From NCBI RefSeq assembly GCF_001552615.1, contig NZ_BCRN01000005.1, positions 124,001 through 188,000 of the forward strand: a stretch of 64,000 nucleotides of DNA. The letters run 5' to 3'. The notes below the pieces were generated by a model that was given only the letters and a program-made list of their open reading frames with translations, did not search any database and was not told where the DNA came from. The stretch comes from Millisia brevis NBRC 105863 (GTDB lineage Bacteria; Actinomycetota; Actinomycetes; Mycobacteriales; Mycobacteriaceae). Shown piece after piece: positions 41,181 to 48,878 of the stretch. The stretch's first letter is position 1, and each line of letters opens with the position of its first letter. The position numbers were made by a program, and so were the translations under genes.

Positions 41181-42284
41181 CTAGGACGTCGGTGTCGGGT
41201 GCGCCCGATAGAAGTCGAGATGGGCGCGCGCGGCGGCCTCCCAGGTATGTGCGCGGGCGAGTTCGCGGCCGGCTGCGCGGCGGACGCCGTCGGGCTGCCG
41301 AATGGCGGCGTCGAGGCCGGCGGCGAGGGCGGGCACGTCCGGCGCGAGGTCGATCGTGGACCCGAAGACCTCCCGCAGGATCGGCAGATCGCGGCCGACG
41401 ACGGGCCGTCCGGCCGCGAGCGCCTCCATCGCCGCCAGCCCGAAGCCCTCCTTGGTGGACGGGAAGGCGAAGGCGGCGCAACCGGCGACCATCGCCGGAA
41501 GCTCGTCCTCGGGAACGGCGCCGACGACGATCGGTTCGACTCCCAGCTCGACGGCGCGCTTCTCGAACCGGGAGCGATAGTCGCGGTAGTCGAAGAGCGT
41601 CTCGCCCCCCGCAAAAACCAGCGACAGATCCGGCCGATCGCGGTGCAGCAACGCAAATGCCTCGAGCAGATCGATACTGCCCTTGCGCGGCTCGATCCCG
41701 CCGACCGCGAGGATGTAGCGGCCATAGCGCTCGACCATGCGGCTGCGGGTGGCGACCGCTCCGGCCGCGTCGGAGGCGGCATCGGCGAAGCGCCGGTAGT
41801 CGACCCCGTTCGGGATCACCGTCGGGTGAAAGCCCCAGCCGGCGGTCACCTCCGCGGCGACGGCCCGCGAGACGCAGATCCGCGCATAGGGTTCGACGAC
41901 GGCCTTCTCGTGGCAGGCGACCAGGACCGGTGTGGTGAAGGCATCCAGGTGGTGGATGGTGCGGATGCAGGTCTGCACGGCATTGGCGCTGATGCAGTCC
42001 TGGGCGTGCACGATGTCGAAGGCGTTGGGGTCGAAGGCATCCCGCAGGGTATCGATCGAGCGCACGATGCGGTCGGTGATGGTTTCGTCGGGGACGTCGG
42101 TGAACGGTACGAGCCGCACCTCGACCGCCGGATCGACCGGCCGGAAGAAGGCCTCGTCGCCGCCGCGACTGAGCGACCAGACGGTGACCACCGCCCCCGC
42201 GTCGGCGAGCGCTTCGGCCAGATTCAACGTATGGACCACGCCGCCACGCGGTTTCGTCGAGTAGGTCAGCAGCGCGATGCGCAT
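41181..42284 (-). CDS. MSMEG_0565-type glycosyltransferase of the Nit1C cluster
   Basis: A 367-residue GT-B glycosyltransferase, family GT4. It starts RIALLTYSTKPRGGVVHTLNL, has the NDP-sugar region AVGGIEPRKGSIDLLEAF and the acidic E-x7-E motif in PSTKEGFGLAAMEALAAG. It is a recognised accessory of the actinobacterial nitrogen-starvation nitrilase cluster. The acceptor is unknown; one idea is glycosylation of the cluster's small-molecule product. It begins four bases after the stop of the nitrilase-like gene, and the pair shares a separate promoter, so it may be regulated apart from the other six genes. Confidence 0.9.
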   Translation of the reverse strand: MRIALLTYSTKPRGGVVHTLNLAEALADAGAVVTVWSLSRGGDEAFFRPVDPAVEVRLVPFTDVPDETITDRIVRSIDTLRDAFDPNAFDIVHAQDCISANAVQTCIRTIHHLDAFTTPVLVACHEKAVVEPYARICVSRAVAAEVTAGWGFHPTVIPNGVDYRRFADAASDAAGAVATRSRMVERYGRYILAVGGIEPRKGSIDLLEAFALLHRDRPDLSLVFAGGETLFDYRDYRSRFEKRAVELGVEPIVVGAVPEDELPAMVAGCAAFAFPSTKEGFGLAAMEALAAGRPVVGRDLPILREVFGSTIDLAPDVPALAAGLDAAIRQPDGVRRAAGRELARAHTWEAAARAHLDFYRAHPTPTS

Positions 42285-42288
42285 CGGA

Positions 42289-43134
42289 TCACGATCCGAC
42301 CGAGTTGTGCGAGCGGTAGATCTCCGGGCGCAGCTCCTCGAGATGGTTGAGCACCCGGCGGGCGCGTTGGGTATCGGCCTCGATATCGACGGTGGCGGTG
42401 GCCAATCCGCCCTTCGATCGGGTGGTGGCCAGCACGTCTCCGCCGGGTCCGACGATCTTGGCCTGCCCGAGGAAGCGCAGCGAGCCGGTGACGCCGGTCA
42501 GGTTGGACGAGACGACGTAGACCTGGTTCTCGGCGGCGCGGGCGCAGTCGTACAGGTCGAACAGTCGCGACTGCCGATCGGCGGGCAGACGGGCGGCGCG
42601 GTCGGTGACGCTGGCCGGCCACGCGGACAGCGCGACGATCACCCGAGCCCCGTCGAGGGCGAGGGTGCGCGCGGACTCGGGGAAAGTCTTGTCGTAGTCG
42701 ATCAGCATGCCGATGCGCCCGACCGGGGTGTCGAAGGCGCGGAAGGAATCTCCCGCCGCGTAGGCGAGCGATTCCCCCGCCGGCTGATGCACCTTGCGGT
42801 GGATGCCGAGCAGTCCGTCGCCGGACAGGCAGGCCGCACTGTTGTAGCGGCGGCCCTGAGCGGCCTCGGCGAATCCGATGCAGACGGTCATCGGGCCGGC
42901 CGCCTCGGCGATCGCCGCCAGTTCGGGGCCGTCCGGGTCGAGGGCGCGCGGCAGGTCCTCCGGATCGGGTGAGCGCAGGTCGCCGATATAGCCACCGATG
43001 GCCGCGTCGGGAAAGACCAGCAGGTCGACGCCGTCGCGGCGGGCCGCTTCGATGATCCCGACCGCCTTGGATACCCCGCGCCGGATGTCCCGCCCGAAGT
43101 TGGCGGCCAGCGCCCCGAGGGTGACCGATGACAT
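42289..43134 (-). CDS. Nitrilase-fold protein lacking the catalytic Cys and Glu
   Basis: A 281-residue carbon-nitrogen hydrolase-fold protein, clearly a paralogue of the cluster's nitrilase. The motifs that carry the Glu-Lys-Cys triad are intact except for the residues themselves. LLVFPDAAIGGY has Asp43 where the partner has Glu41, RKVHQP keeps Lys114, and LIDYDKTFPE has Asp146 where the partner has the nucleophile Cys152. Nitrile or amide hydrolysis by the normal thiol route is therefore impossible. The pocket framework (ALSAWPAS, SSNLTGVTGS, PGGDVLATT) is well kept, so selection seems to maintain the fold. It may bind the same ligand, form a mixed spiral with the active nitrilase, or act as a sensor. 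A TAGAGT hexamer six bases before the ATG indicates its own leaderless transcript. Confidence 0.9.
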   Translation of the reverse strand: MSSVTLGALAANFGRDIRRGVSKAVGIIEAARRDGVDLLVFPDAAIGGYIGDLRSPDPEDLPRALDPDGPELAAIAEAAGPMTVCIGFAEAAQGRRYNSAACLSGDGLLGIHRKVHQPAGESLAYAAGDSFRAFDTPVGRIGMLIDYDKTFPESARTLALDGARVIVALSAWPASVTDRAARLPADRQSRLFDLYDCARAAENQVYVVSSNLTGVTGSLRFLGQAKIVGPGGDVLATTRSKGGLATATVDIEADTQRARRVLNHLEELRPEIYRSHNSVGS

Positions 43135-43194: not shown

Positions 43195-44625
43195 TCACGC
43201 CGCCCCCAGTCCGGTCACCGTCGAGGCGACCGCCACCGTGCTGACGCCGTCCGGCCACACCAGTCGCACGCCCGGTTGGGCGGACAGTCGCCCGCAGGCG
43301 GCGGTGCTGGTCGGGCCCGCCGGGATGCGGGCCGTCGGGTCCGTGGTCGCGTCGTCGGCGGTCAGCATGGCGAAGCCGGGGAAGCAGGTCAGCCAGGACC
43401 CCGGCGCGGCGTCGCGGGGGCGGGGGATCGCCGCGACGTCCAGTTCGGCACCGGTACCGGAGGCCTCCGCGAGCATGCCGAGGGTGCCGGCGATACCGGC
43501 CATGCTGACGTCCTTGGCCGCGCGTGGGCGCATTCGGGCGGTCAGTCCGGCCATCGCCACCAACTCCTCGCTGCTGCGCCGGCTGGTGGAGTCCCATTGC
43601 CGGCCCCGGTAGCCGGGCCGCCAGCCGCCGCCGAGGTCGGCGGTCAGCGACACCACATCGCCGACGCGCCCCGCACCGGCCGGCATCGCCGGACCGGCCG
43701 CGCCCAGGGCGGTGACCGACAGCGCGGCCGGCACCCCGACCTGGGTGTGGCCGCCGAGCACGGGGGTGCGCCACGCCGCGGCGGCCGCGGCGAGACCGCG
43801 CACGATGCGGGTCAGATGGGAGCGGGTCGGTGCGCCGACGGCGTCGAGCAGCCCCAGCGGGCGGGCACCCATCGCGCTGAGGTCGTTGATGTTGACCAGC
43901 ACCGCGCACCAGCCGGCCCATTCGGGGTCGCGTTCGACCATCGACGGGACGATCGCATCGCAGGCGGCGATCACGTCGCTGTGCGGGACCGGCACGCCGT
44001 CGTCGCCGCGGAAGCCGGCCGGTCCGAGGCCCCCGGCCTGCGCGCCGAGCGGGGCGAGCACGTCGGCGAGCATCGCCTTGGTCGCCTCGACGGTGCGCTG
44101 GACGGCGTCGATCGACCACCGCATCAGCAGGTGTGGGCTGCCGCCGATCGCCGGTGCGGCCCCGGCGTCGCGCCAGCCGAGCCGCCGGAACAGCGCGGCA
44201 TGCCGCTGCTGCACGGTCGCCTCGAAGCGCAGTACCCCCTCGGATTCGACGCGGGCGCAGGCGGCGCGGATCAGGGCGGCGCCGACCCCGCGGGCGTGCG
44301 CGGTATCGGCGACGACCAACCGGCTGCCGGTCCACCAGCCGATGTCCGGCGCGCATACCGGGGCGATCCGGACGCCGCCGAGGATCGTGCCGTCGCCGGC
44401 CGCGGCGACCAACACGATCGCCCGCGGGTCGTCGTCGATGTCGTCGCGGTCGGTGCCGGTGAAGAGCCCCTGGCGGACCACGAACTCCTCGTGCCGCAGC
44501 CGGCGATAGGCGTCGAGCGCGGCGGTCGAGTCGGCGACGGTCACCAGGTGGTCCGGGCGGACCGGCGGGGCGCCGGCGAGGATCGACAACTCCCGGTGGG
44601 GGTGTTGCGGCTGCGGGTCGGCCAT
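43195..44625 (-). CDS. GNAT-AIR synthase fusion (MSMEG_0567/Sll0786 plus Sll0787)
   Basis: A 476-residue two-domain protein. Residues about 20-170 are a GNAT domain with VADTAHARGVGAALIRAACA as acetyl-CoA loop. Residues about 185-476 are an AIR synthase/PurM-like domain: FRGDDGVPVPHSDVIAACDA, CAVLVNINDLSAMGARPLG, GGHTQVGVPAALSVTALG and AAKDVSMAGIAGTLGML. PurM-like domains bind ATP and activate an amide or acyl oxygen as a phosphate. In many bacteria the two parts are separate neighbouring genes (nitE and nitF), so this is a fusion of two consecutive pathway steps. It starts two bases upstream of the radical SAM stop region and is cotranscribed. The substrate is unknown; it may act on the product of the nitrilase. 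Confidence 0.9.
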   Translation of the reverse strand: MADPQPQHPHRELSILAGAPPVRPDHLVTVADSTAALDAYRRLRHEEFVVRQGLFTGTDRDDIDDDPRAIVLVAAAGDGTILGGVRIAPVCAPDIGWWTGSRLVVADTAHARGVGAALIRAACARVESEGVLRFEATVQQRHAALFRRLGWRDAGAAPAIGGSPHLLMRWSIDAVQRTVEATKAMLADVLAPLGAQAGGLGPAGFRGDDGVPVPHSDVIAACDAIVPSMVERDPEWAGWCAVLVNINDLSAMGARPLGLLDAVGAPTRSHLTRIVRGLAAAAAAWRTPVLGGHTQVGVPAALSVTALGAAGPAMPAGAGRVGDVVSLTADLGGGWRPGYRGRQWDSTSRRSSEELVAMAGLTARMRPRAAKDVSMAGIAGTLGMLAEASGTGAELDVAAIPRPRDAAPGSWLTCFPGFAMLTADDATTDPTARIPAGPTSTAACGRLSAQPGVRLVWPDGVSTVAVASTVTGLGAA

Positions 44626-44626
44626 G

Positions 44627-45682
44627 TCAGCCTCCGATCGTCGACAGGGCGCTGCAGGCGCCGCAGGCCGCGCAGCCGGCCCGCTGGTCGGCTCCGGCCA
44701 TGTCGATCAGCCGCAGGTGGGCGCCGACCTCGCGGGTGATCTTCTCGACGACGGCGGCTTCGGGCGCCGGCGCGTGATCGACGTCGACCGCGAGGGTGCC
44801 CTGCTGGGGGCGGAACGGCACGATGAACGGGTAGACCCCGGCATCGGCGAGTTGTTTGGCGCCGGTGATCATCTCATCCGGGTCCTCGCCCAGACCGACC
44901 AGCAGATAGGTCGACACCTGGTTGCGGCCGAAGACGCGCACCGCCTCGGCCCAGGCGGCGTGGTATTCCGCCAGCGGGACGGTCGACTTGCCGGGCATCC
45001 AGCGGCGGCGCACCTCGTCGTCGAGGGATTCGACGTGGATGCCGATCGCGTCGGCACCCGCCTCGCGCAGATCGGTCAACACCTTCAGGTCGGCCGGGGG
45101 CTCGCATTGCACCTGGATGGGCAGTTCGGGGACCGCGGCCCGTACCGCCCGCACACAGCGGGCGAGATGGCGGGCGCCGCGATCGGCGCCCGCGGACGTG
45201 CCGGTGGTCATCACCATCTGCCGCACCCCGTCGAGATCGACGGCGGCCCGGGCGACCTCTGCGATCTGCTCGGGGGATTTGACCGCGACGGTCGACCCGA
45301 CGCGCAACGATTCCTCGATCGAGCAGAAGCGGCAGCGCTGGTCGCGGCGGTAGCGGATGCAGGTCTGCACCACCGTGGTCGCCAGGACGTCGCGGCCGTG
45401 CAGGCGGGCGATCTTTTCGTAGGACACGCCGTCGGCGGTTGCGCCGTCGTAGAAGTGCGGCCGCCCGACCGACTCGACGCCGATGCCGATGTCCTCGCCG
45501 TCGCGCAGCACCCGGTCGCCGTCGAAGACGAAGGGGCTGTCCGCATTCCGTGGAATTGCCGCGGCCAAGCCGTCGATGACCAGGTGCCCGTCGTCGCTCG
45601 GCCCGGCCCCGCCGGTGCGGTGTACCGGTGGGGTTCCGCGAATGCCCAATAGGGCCAGTTCCACTCGGGTGGAGGTACTCAT
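44627..45682 (-). CDS. nitD: Radical SAM protein, MSMEG_0568 family
   Basis: A 351-residue radical SAM enzyme that resembles biotin synthase and lipoyl synthase in layout. The candidate cluster-binding cysteines are Cys108, Cys117 and Cys120 in TCIRYRRDQRCRFCSIEE, which is C-x8-C-x2-C and not the usual C-x3-C-x2-C. The (beta-alpha)6 part continues with MVMTTGTSAG, IQVQCEPPADL, AIGIHVESLD and YLLVGLGEDPDEMI. A second set, Cys337, Cys340 and Cys343, is spaced C-x2-C-x2-C at the extreme C-terminus and may hold an auxiliary iron-sulphur cluster. It is the conserved radical enzyme of Nit1C clusters. Its reaction is not known. It lies 16 bases after the flavin gene with a GGGAG site. Confidence 0.9.
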   Translation of the reverse strand: MSTSTRVELALLGIRGTPPVHRTGGAGPSDDGHLVIDGLAAAIPRNADSPFVFDGDRVLRDGEDIGIGVESVGRPHFYDGATADGVSYEKIARLHGRDVLATTVVQTCIRYRRDQRCRFCSIEESLRVGSTVAVKSPEQIAEVARAAVDLDGVRQMVMTTGTSAGADRGARHLARCVRAVRAAVPELPIQVQCEPPADLKVLTDLREAGADAIGIHVESLDDEVRRRWMPGKSTVPLAEYHAAWAEAVRVFGRNQVSTYLLVGLGEDPDEMITGAKQLADAGVYPFIVPFRPQQGTLAVDVDHAPAPEAAVVEKITREVGAHLRLIDMAGADQRAGCAACGACSALSTIGG

Positions 45683-45698: not shown

Positions 45699-46988
45699 TT
45701 ATCGATTGACGACCGAGCGCAGGCGGGTGCCGCCCAGTTCGGTCAGAATGTGCTCGGCCACGTACTTCGCATCCCGGTCGATGCCCAGGAATCGGCCCGA
45801 TCCCCAGGTGTGCATCCAGGGCAGTCCGACGAAGCTGAGGCCGGGTACCTCGGTGATGCCGCGGGTCTGCATCGGACGTCCGCCGCCGTCGAAGGCGCTC
45901 GCCTCGATCCACCGGTAGTCGGGTCGGTAGCCGATCGCCCAGATGATGCCGGTGACTCCGGCTTCGGCCAGGTCGAGGGACTCCGGGTCGGACGGCGGCT
46001 GCCAGACCGGCTCGTAGTGCGCGCCGGGTGGGGCGTCGATGCCCTGCCGCTCGATCCACCGGTCGATATCGGAACAGATCGAGTTGTAGACCGCGTCGGC
46101 GTGGTCGAGCGAGTCGGTCAGTGTCGGCGCGAACCGCAGCCGGGTGTCGCGGCCGTCGATCAGGGTGCCGTACAGACGCATCCCCTCGACGGCGAAGCGG
46201 CGCAGGTCGACGTCCCGGCCACCGTCGCGACCGGTGACGTAGTGATTGGTCTTCTCCCTGGCGGCCCGACCGCCGGGATATTCGGGCGTCGGGGTGTCGT
46301 AGAGGCCCATATCGGCCAGCCACGTCATGGCGTCGCGGCCGCGATAGAAACGGGCGACGCGCGGGGCGTTACCGATGGCCAGGTGGACCTGCCGGCCCGA
46401 CAGGTGCAGGTCCTCGGCGATCTGGGCGCCGGACTGGCCGGACCCGACCACGAGCACCGCACCGTCGGGCAGTTGCTGCGGGTTGCGGTATTGCTCCGAA
46501 TGGATCTGCTGCACAGTGGGATCGAGGGCGCCGGCAAAGTCCGGCAGCACCGGGAGTGGATATCCGCCGGTCGCGATCACCACCCGGTCGCAGGTGATGA
46601 CGCTCGGCCCGTCCGGGCCGGTGACCTCGAGGTCGAAGCCGCCGATCGTCGATCCGGTCAGCCGGGTGACCGTGGTGTGGGTGCGCAGTGGCGGTTCGAA
46701 GCCCGCCAACCAGCCGGTCAACCAGTCGACCACCTGGTCGCGGGTCATGAATCCGTCCGGTTCCGGTCCGGCGTAGGAATACCCCGGCAGCCGGCAATGC
46801 CAATTCGGGGTGACCAGGGTGAAGTTGTCCCAGCGGGTATCGGCCCAGGCGTGCATCGGGGTTCCCGATTCGAGCACCAGGTGGTCGATCCCGGCGTGGC
46901 CGAGATACCAGCTGACCGACAGGCCGGCCTGACCACCGCCGACGATCACCACCGGATGGTGTTCGCCGCGGGGCGTGGCGGCGGTCAT
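45699..46988 (-). CDS. nitH: Flavin-dependent oxidoreductase, MSMEG_0569 family
   Basis: A 429-residue FAD/NAD(P)H enzyme of the flavin monooxygenase superfamily. The FAD loop is VVIVGGGQAGLSVSWYLG, followed by WADTRWDNFTLVTPNWHCRLPG. The NADPH loop is VLVVGSGQSGAQIAEDLHL, and the second FAD region is GIIWAIGYRPDY. It is a fixed member of the Nit1C cluster and presumably oxidises a nitrogen-containing intermediate. The ATG at 46988 overlaps the stop of the MSMEG_0570 gene (ATGA), so the two are translationally coupled; a longer in-frame reading upstream is an artefact of that overlap. Confidence 0.9.
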   Translation of the reverse strand: MTAATPRGEHHPVVIVGGGQAGLSVSWYLGHAGIDHLVLESGTPMHAWADTRWDNFTLVTPNWHCRLPGYSYAGPEPDGFMTRDQVVDWLTGWLAGFEPPLRTHTTVTRLTGSTIGGFDLEVTGPDGPSVITCDRVVIATGGYPLPVLPDFAGALDPTVQQIHSEQYRNPQQLPDGAVLVVGSGQSGAQIAEDLHLSGRQVHLAIGNAPRVARFYRGRDAMTWLADMGLYDTPTPEYPGGRAAREKTNHYVTGRDGGRDVDLRRFAVEGMRLYGTLIDGRDTRLRFAPTLTDSLDHADAVYNSICSDIDRWIERQGIDAPPGAHYEPVWQPPSDPESLDLAEAGVTGIIWAIGYRPDYRWIEASAFDGGGRPMQTRGITEVPGLSFVGLPWMHTWGSGRFLGIDRDAKYVAEHILTELGGTRLRSVVNR

Positions 46989-47290
46989 GACGCCGCCTCC
47001 TTCGGTAGCGGCGGCTGCATCGAGACCACCCGGACGACGGCATCGGGTGCGTACCGTCGGGCGGATCTGTCGATGGCGGCGGTGGTTTCCGCCGCCGCGG
47101 TGCAGGCGAAGCCGTACTTCGCCCGCACCCGCTCGCTCGCCTCCGCCAGGGCCCACGTCGACCGGTCGCGGAAGTCCGCCACCGTATACGCACCGTCGAC
47201 CTCGAGGTGGTCGTGCATCACCAGGCTCGGTGAATAGCACTGCTGCAGAGCGCCGTCCGGCCAGCGGACGACCACGATCATCTCAGGCAT
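46985..47290 (-). CDS. nitG: MSMEG_0570-family nitrogen starvation response protein
   Basis: A 101-residue protein with no named fold. It starts IVVVRWPDGALQQCYSPSLV and continues with a charged helix (RSTWALAEASERVRAKYGFA) and a cysteine in YGFACTAA. WPDG-x4-CYSPS is the most conserved-looking feature and includes Cys18, a candidate reactive residue. It overlaps the nitrilase stop by eight bases and the flavin gene start by four, so stoichiometric production with both is likely. The role is unknown; a small partner or carrier of the nitrilase or the flavin enzyme is a fair guess. Confidence 0.88.
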   Translation of the reverse strand: MPEMIVVVRWPDGALQQCYSPSLVMHDHLEVDGAYTVADFRDRSTWALAEASERVRAKYGFACTAAAETTAAIDRSARRYAPDAVVRVVSMQPPLPKEAAS

Positions 47291-48182
47291 GGGCCAACGA
47301 CCGCCATCCAGCCGTCTGCGCGGCGTCGAGTTCGGTCAGCGGGCCGTAGGCGTCCGGCCGCCGATCGCGCAGGTGGAACATGCCGCCGCGCATCGCGGTG
47401 AAGGTCTGTGCCACATCGATATCGGCGACGGCCATACCGCTGTCGAGCAGGGTGGTGGCCAGGACGTTGCCGCCCGGATCGACGACCTTGGCGTTGCCGA
47501 CGTAGCGGAGCGAGCCGAAGGTCCCGGACTGGTTGGAGGCGATCCAGAAGACCTGGTTGTCGAGCGCGCGAGCGGTGTCGAAGAGGTTGAACCGATAGGT
47601 CCACCGGTCGTCCTGGAGGTTCTGCGCGGTCGCCGTCCGGGCCGCCGGCCACGCAGACAGGCTGGCGATGATCTCGGCACCGCCGAGGGCCATCATCCGC
47701 GCCGCCTCGGGAAACGCCTTGTCGTAACAGATCTGCAGACCCACGCGCCCGACGGGCGTTTCGAAGACCCCGTAGTCGTCACCGGCCGAGTAGGACATAT
47801 TCTCGCCGAGAGGCTGGTGGACCTTGCGGTAGCTGCCGTAGATGCGGCTGCCGTCCAGGATCGCGGCGGCGTTGTATCGGGTCTGCCCGTCCTCGGCGAG
47901 TTCGCAGAAGCCGATCGCTATGACCAGGTCACCGATGATCGACTGCACCCGTTGGATTTCCGGGCCGTCGAGCCGGATCGCCGGGGGCAGTGAGCGGCTG
48001 GTGGTCTTCACCGTGTCGCCGTGATTGCCCAACGACGAGAGGTAGCCGCCGATCGCGGCCTCGGGGAAGACCAGCAGCTGCACTCCCCGCTCGCGGGCCT
48101 GCTCGACGTACGCCCGGATCGTCGCGTAGTTGTCTTCCAGGTCACGGCCGAAGTTGGCCGAAACCGCTGCAACGGTGGTCAT
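47283..48182 (-). CDS. nitC: Nit6803-type nitrilase (active-site complete)
   Basis: A 299-residue nitrilase. The triad is Glu41 in LLVFPEAAIGGY, Lys120 in YRKVHQPLGE and Cys152 in LQICYDKAFPE. Nitrilases of this group hydrolyse nitriles to acids and ammonia and assemble into spirals. The Nit1C cluster has been linked experimentally in other bacteria to growth on cyanide as nitrogen source, so this enzyme probably releases ammonia from a cyanide-derived nitrile. It lies 26 bases after the MSMEG_0572 gene, with GAGGAT before the ATG, and overlaps the next gene. It stands in one operon with a dead paralogue about 4 kb downstream. Confidence 0.93.
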   Translation of the reverse strand: MTTVAAVSANFGRDLEDNYATIRAYVEQARERGVQLLVFPEAAIGGYLSSLGNHGDTVKTTSRSLPPAIRLDGPEIQRVQSIIGDLVIAIGFCELAEDGQTRYNAAAILDGSRIYGSYRKVHQPLGENMSYSAGDDYGVFETPVGRVGLQICYDKAFPEAARMMALGGAEIIASLSAWPAARTATAQNLQDDRWTYRFNLFDTARALDNQVFWIASNQSGTFGSLRYVGNAKVVDPGGNVLATTLLDSGMAVADIDVAQTFTAMRGGMFHLRDRRPDAYGPLTELDAAQTAGWRSLAHA

Positions 48183-48208: not shown

Positions 48209-48733
48209 TCACACCATGTAGGTGGAGTTGATGATCGCGCCCTTGCGGGCGTAGTGGATCACGGCGTCCTGGACGTCCAGGGGATGCGCGGGGATCACAC
48301 CTTCGATGAGGTCCTCCTCGCGGCCGCCGTGCAGGGCCAGGCCGAAGCGGCAGCAGAAGACGGTGCCGCCCTCGGAGATGAAGGTGGCCAGGGCGTCGTT
48401 GATGTTCTGCTCGCCGGGGAATCCGGAGTCGCCGGTCTTCGGAAAGCCGCGTGTGGCAAGGCAGTTGATCGCACCGGGACCGTAGAAGTAGATCGCCGAC
48501 TCGAATCCCTTGCGCAGCGCCCGGGTGGCCTGCAGGACCGCGACGAACGACACCGAGGACTCGTGCGCGATGCCGTGCACCAGGGTGAAATAGGTTTCAC
48601 CGTTCTCGGCCTGGTAGTCGGGGAAGATCTTGGTGGATCCGTAGATGTTGGAGCCCTTGGGCAACGACGGGTGCGGGATCTCGGCGATGGACTTCGCGAT
48701 GTTCTCGGTGATGGTGTCGTCGAAAGGGGACAC
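48209..48733 (-). CDS. nitB: MSMEG_0572/Sll0783-family nitrogen starvation response protein
   Basis: A 174-residue protein, the first gene of the cluster. Its middle (FTLVHGIAHESSVSFVAVLQ, then GFESAIYFYGPGAINCLATR) and the later GGTVFCCRFGLALHGG suggest a DsrE-like alpha/beta fold, with three cysteines in CLATRG and FCCRFG that could be sulphur- or cyanide-reactive. The cyanobacterial homologue sll0783 is known as a nitrogen-starvation-induced gene. The GTG at 48733 has GGAGAG seven bases upstream. Its promoter region contains two GlnR-like boxes. Function unknown; a carrier or scavenger role is only inferred. Confidence 0.9.
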   Translation of the reverse strand: MSPFDDTITENIAKSIAEIPHPSLPKGSNIYGSTKIFPDYQAENGETYFTLVHGIAHESSVSFVAVLQATRALRKGFESAIYFYGPGAINCLATRGFPKTGDSGFPGEQNINDALATFISEGGTVFCCRFGLALHGGREEDLIEGVIPAHPLDVQDAVIHYARKGAIINSTYMV

Positions 48734-48862: not shown

Positions 48863-48878
48863 GTTTCCGAATGGTTAC
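48863..48878 (-). promoter_or_regulatory. Candidate GlnR box upstream of the Nit1C cluster
   Basis: On the minus strand GTAAC-CATTCG-GAAAC is an exact fit to the actinobacterial GlnR half-site pattern GTnAC-n6-GAAAC. It lies about 130 bases before the GTG of the first gene. GlnR activates nitrogen-scavenging genes under nitrogen limitation, which suits this cluster. Confidence 0.6.

Follow-up and report, generated by a model that had tools for sequence, protein, structure and literature searches.

What does a nitrilase-fold protein do when it lacks the catalytic nucleophile of its superfamily and is encoded directly beside a glycosyltransferase? The question is raised by a gene in a stretch of 64,000 nucleotides from Millisia brevis NBRC 105863 (the window, whose numbering is used throughout). 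Here eight consecutive genes lie on the minus strand in the order 572-571-570-569-568-567-566-565, the labels being our own, after the locus numbers of Mycolicibacterium smegmatis:

41181..42284 (-): 565, MSMEG_0565-family glycosyltransferase (TIGR04047, 461.5 bits, cut-off 259.85)
42289..43134 (-): 566, nitrilase-fold paralogue with Asp at the nucleophile position, 281 aa (PF00795 CN_hydrolase, 128.4 bits, cut-off 23.2)
43195..44625 (-): 567, MSMEG_0567 family GNAT and AIR-synthase-like fusion (TIGR04045, TIGR04050)
44627..45682 (-): 568, MSMEG_0568 family radical SAM protein (TIGR04043)
45699..46988 (-): 569, MSMEG_0569 family flavin-dependent oxidoreductase (TIGR04046; ATG at 46988)
46985..47290 (-): 570, MSMEG_0570 family small protein (TIGR04042)
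47283..48182 (-): 571, Glu-Lys-Cys paralogue, an amidase-like CN hydrolase and not a TIGR04048 nitrilase (profile scores, triad alignment)
48209..48733 (-): 572, MSMEG_0572/Sll0783 family protein (TIGR04044)
48863..48878 (-): GlnR-box-like site with zero mismatches, 130-145 bases 5' of the 572 start (weak)

Six of the eight products (572, 570, 569, 568, 567 and 565) score above the cut-offs of NCBIfam models, and the two CN hydrolases, 566 and 571, match general models only. The start of 565 lies 4 bases past the 566 stop. The upstream site has the GlnR-box-like form GNAAC-N6-GNAAC; the window holds three such sites against 0.8 expected, a count equalled in 4 of 100 shuffles.

With its eight genes, two CN hydrolases and TIGR04047 glycosyltransferase, the cluster follows the pattern of the gpr operon MSMEG_0565-0572 of M. 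smegmatis, in which MSMEG_0566 (annotated 'aliphatic amidase') has the same gene order and neighbours as 566; from this order and from related Mycolicibacterium loci, the two are presumed to be orthologues. According to reports on this operon, GlnR binds 5' of msmeg_0572 (PMC4222082), the eight genes are GlnR-dependent and strongly induced on nitrogen removal (PMC6039565), and MSMEG_0566 appears in nitrogen-starvation expression tables with values of 8.94 (PMC4222082) and 2.96 (PMC4617892). Deletion of the operon renders M. smegmatis peroxide-sensitive under nitrogen starvation, an effect that the authors were unable to attribute to single genes (PMC6039565). The same source describes MSMEG_0566 as a putative aliphatic amidase that could contribute to nitrogen assimilation, a suggestion that assumes an active MSMEG_0566 amidase. 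It also proposes that the TGA stop codon of 571 encodes selenocysteine. In the window this codon sits inside an 8-base overlap with the start of 570 (47283-47290), and the junction overlaps in all 77 loci having it; because this overlap with a separate gene family is conserved, the selenocysteine reading is unlikely.

Family assignment and predicted fold

The original prediction placed 566 in a Nit1C cluster, as described by Podar et al. (2005; PMC1199592), who also note a glycosyltransferase in Burkholderia and Rubrivivax. The neighbouring genes fit this assignment: the six other Nit1C families (572, radical SAM, GNAT, AIRS, 570 and FAD) are present, with scores above cut-off for TIGR04044, 04043, 04045, 04050, 04042 and 04046, respectively, the AIRS gene being of the MSMEG_0567 form (TIGR04050) and scoring below cut-off for the sll0787 form (TIGR04049). 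The nitrilase itself does not fit. Neither 571 nor 566 is of the subfamily-1 (Nit6803) type, their scores against TIGR04048 being 42.9 and 32.3 bits, respectively, with a cut-off of 502.6. The Nit6803 and NitC nitrilases of Nit1C clusters (TIGR04048, 3wuy) resemble 566 in their superfamily fold (Z 31.9) and in overlapping families of neighbouring genes. The suggestion that 566 might be a partner in a nitrilase spiral likewise finds no support, both proteins falling far below the Nit6803 model and the nearest folds being those of amidases and N-carbamoylputrescine amidohydrolase.

Membership of the nitrilase superfamily as such is clear from both the PF00795 score and the fold. The AlphaFold2 model of 566 has a mean pLDDT of 90.7, with averages of 92 to 94 in the blocks that contain residues 43, 114, 121 and 146, and only 62 to 71 in the loop 171-190. 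Its best structural match is a Pyrococcus amidase C146A with bound glutaramide (6ypa_D; Z 35.0, rmsd 1.7, 255 residues); with matches within Z 1 of each other treated as tied, amidases rank first, followed by N-carbamoylputrescine amidohydrolase. This nearest solved fold, the amidase PH0642 of Pyrococcus horikoshii (1j31, 6ypa), has its nucleophile position numbered 146 as in 566, but it is 28% identical and has a natural Glu-Lys-Cys triad, the C146A form in 6ypa being engineered. According to the entry titles, ligand-bound structures have been deposited for solved amidase mutants that lack Cys or that lack Glu as well (4izv, E41Q/C145A with acrylamide), and a pocket can therefore bind without the triad.

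The catalytic residues

Alignment of the two paralogues sets Asp43, Lys114 and Asp146 of 566 in the columns of Glu41, Lys120 and Cys152 of 571. The codons concerned in 566, together with that of a further active-site residue, are as follows:

43006..43008 (-): residue 43 codon; Glu in Cys-type relatives, and Asp, His, Gly or Gln in the 566 clade
42793..42795 (-): codon of Lys114, the retained catalytic Lys, present in 92/92 tree rows
42772..42774 (-): codon of Glu121, a further conserved active-site Glu, in 37/38 Asp146 rows and 54/54 Cys rows
42697..42699 (-): Asp146 codon; Cys in 126/126 Cys-type relatives, fixed as Asp in the 566 clade

That 566 lacks the Glu and Cys of the superfamily and keeps Lys114, as originally predicted from this one sequence, was confirmed by the alignment with 571 and by comparison with relatives. 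In a first sample of 112 loci (L001-L112), the 110 566-type matches read DKD (101) or HKD (9), and 76 of the 77 571-type matches read EKC, the other being a partial match ('.EC'). With more families and one other class added, and with matches below 200 bits, shorter than 700 bases or containing an internal stop (for example, the Cys copy at L220) dropped, there were 243 distinct full-length relatives, 117 with Asp and 126 with Cys at the nucleophile position. Every one of the 126 Cys proteins is EKC; the 117 Asp proteins divide into 103 DKD, 7 GKD, 6 HKD and 1 QKD, none has Glu at residue 43, and no triad mixing the Asp and Cys types was found among the 243. The Glu-Lys-Cys triad of catalytic members of the superfamily is absent from 566. 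As a control, PF00795 gave 46 matches in 12 of 13 related genomes; DNA was available for 30, of which 28 could be aligned (2 could not) and 27 keep Cys, including 2 Cys paralogues from this cluster. The lone Cys-less protein falls within the Asp146 clade.

Conservation of an Asp/Asp pair was not borne out. Asp146 is the fixed change, and residue 43, which is Asp in this strain and elsewhere may be His, Gly or Gln, has altered at least five times inside the 566 clade on the tree. Because Gly or Gln is tolerated at residue 43, its use in a D/D pair or in a metal site was rejected. Two independent losses had also been proposed; every member of the clade lacks both residues, so that their order and independence cannot be read from the data. 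Only two sites, 146 (D versus C) and 267 (E versus D), are near-invariant in both the 566 and 571 groups with a different residue in each. The oddity seen in the window is real and conserved, and is restated here as one fixed Cys-to-Asp change in a paralogue of the amidase branch.

A single clade under purifying selection

Since the Asp and Cys groups are defined by the residue itself, the tree is the independent test. It was built from 92 representatives (38 Asp and 54 Cys rows) and 2 outgroups, and all 38 Asp146 rows form one clade (support 100/95). With the triad columns masked they still lie on one side of a branch, apart from the 54 Cys proteins (SH-aLRT 93, quick search). The sister group of the clade (97/88) comprises eight Glu-Lys-Cys proteins from another actinobacterial class, and in three of the four sister-group loci read (L160, L171 and L172; Pfam checked for L172) an asparagine-synthase-like protein is encoded adjacent to them. 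These features of the sister group suggest that the ancestor of 566 was probably an active amidase-type enzyme. The three loci themselves present an amide hydrolase paired with an amide synthase.

In Gordonia the median dN/dS of 566 is 0.115 (18 loci, 153 pairs) and that of 571 is 0.117 (17 loci, 136 pairs), while the other genes give 0.045 (572), 0.119 (568), 0.169 (569), 0.174 (565) and 0.205 (567). Of 281 sites, 84 are at least 95% conserved in 566 versus 52 in 571, a difference that is only suggestive, since the sample of 571 proteins is the more diverse. The clade-wide loss of catalytic residues, under continued selection and in an intact predicted fold, makes 566 a probable pseudoenzyme. 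The idea of a maintained paralogue lacking the superfamily Glu and Cys is supported, and a search for homologues at the same locus that keep both residues, this strain alone being mutated, found none.

Distribution

Among 201 genomes drawn from the family, 49 matched at 1e-40; in 48 of them 566 is full-length and a weaker match accompanies it, and in one (G193) there is a stretch only. The class draw gave matches at 1e-50 in 45 of 345 genomes, 31 with 566 and 14 with the Cys protein only, as judged by score and fetched loci; a Cys copy also accompanies 566 in 30 of the 31, the exception being G605. Matches were found in 9 of 396 genomes of the phylum draw, in 1 of 198 from the class of G563 (G563 itself) and in 13 of 199 from the class of G317, where those read were all EKC. 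Phage records contained no match to the lone 566 copy of G605 (L212). The Asp146 paralogue is carried by many soil actinobacteria, as part of a set of genes associated with nitrogen starvation.

In Rhodococcus qingshengii N9T-4 a mobilizable plasmid of 565 kb carries the complete cluster (L259), with an IS256 transposase gene nearby. Two clusters on contigs titled Acidobacteriaceae bacterium (L046) and Kitasatospora (L078) are as close to that of the window as are Gordonia (80%) and Rhodococcus-type (73%) clusters, and these contigs are possibly mis-binned or contaminated.

Gene neighbourhood

The noted adjacency of 566 to a glycosyltransferase gene holds almost throughout. Of 106 loci with 566 (L033-L112, L155, L156 and L209-L232), 104 have the gene of an MSMEG_0565-type (GT4-type) glycosyltransferase immediately downstream. 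On the upstream side the neighbour varies among four cluster genes or lies outside the cluster set: 567 (55 loci), 569 (34), 571 (8), 570 (6) and 571 at a greater distance (2), with none found in 1 locus. Of the two exceptions downstream, one (L231) has the glycosyltransferase on another contig of the same genome, and the other (L212, in G605, which is 98% complete) is a lone 566 in a genome without 571 and without such a glycosyltransferase. In this single case (L212:9342-11334) an aldose 1-epimerase gene comes one base after the 566-type gene and supplies a second connection to sugars. Conversely, 18 loci have the Cys protein without 566, and the glycosyltransferase is present in 14 of them and missing in 4, one of which (L158) is a short contig. 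Since the glycosyltransferase and the Cys paralogue occur together in these 14 loci, neither needs 566, which is therefore an extra component of a pathway able to run in its absence.

A strict module of 566 and glycosyltransferase, as first drawn from Mycobacteriales loci, was broken by the class draw with these 14 loci and the lone 566 of G605. Translational coupling was likewise dropped as special evidence for a 566-565 link: the gap between them has a median of 2 bases and is zero or less in 46 of 104 loci, and the junctions SAM568-AIR567, 571-570 and AIR567-571 are equally tight.

Other arrangements also occur. Among low-scoring TIGR04047 loci (L118-L142), none of those fetched in full (L159, L161-L170) contains 566, and some hold 572-, SAM568- and AIR567-like genes. 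In L162, L165 and L168 the TIGR04047 glycosyltransferase is above cut-off and belongs to another kind of cluster, which combines 572-, SAM568- and AIR567-like genes with proteins of FdrA-like appearance and has no 566- or 571-like match. A frame of about 500 codons resembling an AMP-dependent acyl ligase lies between FAD569 and SAM568 or 572 in some Gordonia, Mycolicibacterium and Williamsia (L033, L059, L063, L100), and is absent from the window. Beside 572 there is an amidohydrolase-like gene of about 275 codons in clusters of actinobacteria that do not belong to the window's family (L155, L156, L209, L217, L223, L231, L233, L237). In L155, L211, L234 and L237, 571 is separated from 566 or from the glycosyltransferase gene by a different FAD-oxidoreductase-like gene.

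Possible roles of 566

The altered copy is kept about as strictly as the working one, and a different job for it is therefore probable; taken together, the sequence comparisons make it likely that 566 is retained for a function other than hydrolysis. More tentatively, and as the leading reading of its role, 566 may be a pseudo-amidase with a retained pocket that serves the glycosyltransferase branch of the pathway, a proposal to which we give somewhat less than even credence. The paralogue would stem from one old duplication of the amidase-like enzyme in the cluster; its nucleophile Cys became Asp and its general-base Glu disappeared, with Lys114, Glu121 and the surrounding pocket framework kept. 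Hydrolysis through a Cys thioester would no longer take place, and the Asp146-Lys114 site might instead bind, but not cleave, a small ligand that carries an amide, a carboxylate or a sugar. The protein could then work with the glycosyltransferase branch, for instance as a subunit that has no catalytic role, binds the acceptor or acts in regulation, and is made beside the glycosyltransferase. The constancy of the downstream neighbour, while the upstream one varies, speaks for such a link; the 14 loci without 566, the lone copy in G605, the separation in L231, the unexceptional junction and an indecisive correlation analysis speak against it. The earlier idea that 566 feeds the glycosyltransferase is possible, but that enzyme occurs without 566 in those 14 loci.

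Of the competing explanations, plain decay of a redundant duplicate is the least credible. Residue 43 does vary, and the copy is absent from one genome (G613) though present in others of its genus, but purifying selection as strong as on the Cys paralogue substantively refutes decay, Asp146 is fixed, and reading frames and predicted fold are intact across several families and one further class; clade-wide fixation and dN/dS dispose equally of sequencing error. That 566 is an active enzyme of changed chemistry deserves more weight, unlikely as we consider it. Asp146, together with Lys114 and Glu121 or else with a moved residue such as Cys85, would serve as nucleophile, base or acid on the product of the pathway, and Cys hydrolysis would give way to, for instance, the reaction of a hydratase or lyase or the transfer of an acyl or glycosyl group. 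A site that is simply dead might be expected to drift, whereas Asp146 is fixed in 38/38 tree rows; Lys114 (38/38) and Glu121 (37/38) are kept with it, and Cys85 is found in 38/38 rows of the 566 clade versus 20/54 of the Cys group. Against this, no base is kept at residue 43, where Gly or Gln is allowed, there is no further strongly clade-specific polar switch beyond sites 146 and 267, and structure titles reveal no solved relative with such a site. It is doubtful that the nitrilase fold has in this clade a new catalytic branch, with a fixed Asp-Lys site in place of Glu-Lys-Cys and, as its substrate, a gpr-pathway metabolite that is glycosylated or accepts a glycosyl group, no amide or nitrile being hydrolysed.

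It is also rather improbable that 566 joins 571 in a hetero-oligomer as the non-catalytic subunit, tuning the specificity or assembly of 571. The analogy is with the heteromeric nitrilase NIT4A/NIT4B2 of sorghum (PMC5154151), in which two paralogous nitrilase-fold subunits share a task; those subunits are plant subfamily-1-type nitrilases, and the available part of the account does not state triad loss in either. The two proteins of the present cluster are close paralogues (48% identity), a 571-type copy is found in 30 of the 31 class-draw genomes with 566 and a second weaker match in all 48 family-draw genomes with a full-length 566, and 571 and 566 stand in tandem in 8 loci. However, 566 occurs without 571 in G605 and 571 without 566 in 14 genomes, and two subtypes of 571, some 55-60% identical, stand beside similar 566 proteins. 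Over 88 complete clusters, distance matrices of 566 correlate with those of 568 at 0.89, 565 at 0.85, 571 at 0.78, 569 at 0.77 and 567 at 0.77, and after removal of 568 and 572 the partial correlations are 0.67 (569), 0.66 (565), 0.57 (567) and 0.51 (571); the co-variation of 571 with FAD569 (0.88, partial 0.83) exceeds that of either with 566. These values lean against 571 as an obligate partner and do not single out 565; as a partner test for 566 the approach was judged indecisive, FAD569 and SAM568 scoring as high as the glycosyltransferase.

Implications for the gpr operon

In the open-licence papers of PubMed Central we found neither a function for a 566-type protein nor a natural Cys-to-Asp member of the superfamily. 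Such proteins are annotated 'aliphatic amidase' or 'carbon-nitrogen hydrolase', and arguments on nitrogen scavenging treat them as hydrolases. The clade-wide, selected loss of the nucleophile indicates that this label is probably wrong for the 566 clade. If so, a non-hydrolytic 566 subunit that binds a pathway intermediate would offer a handle for finding the product of the gpr operon.
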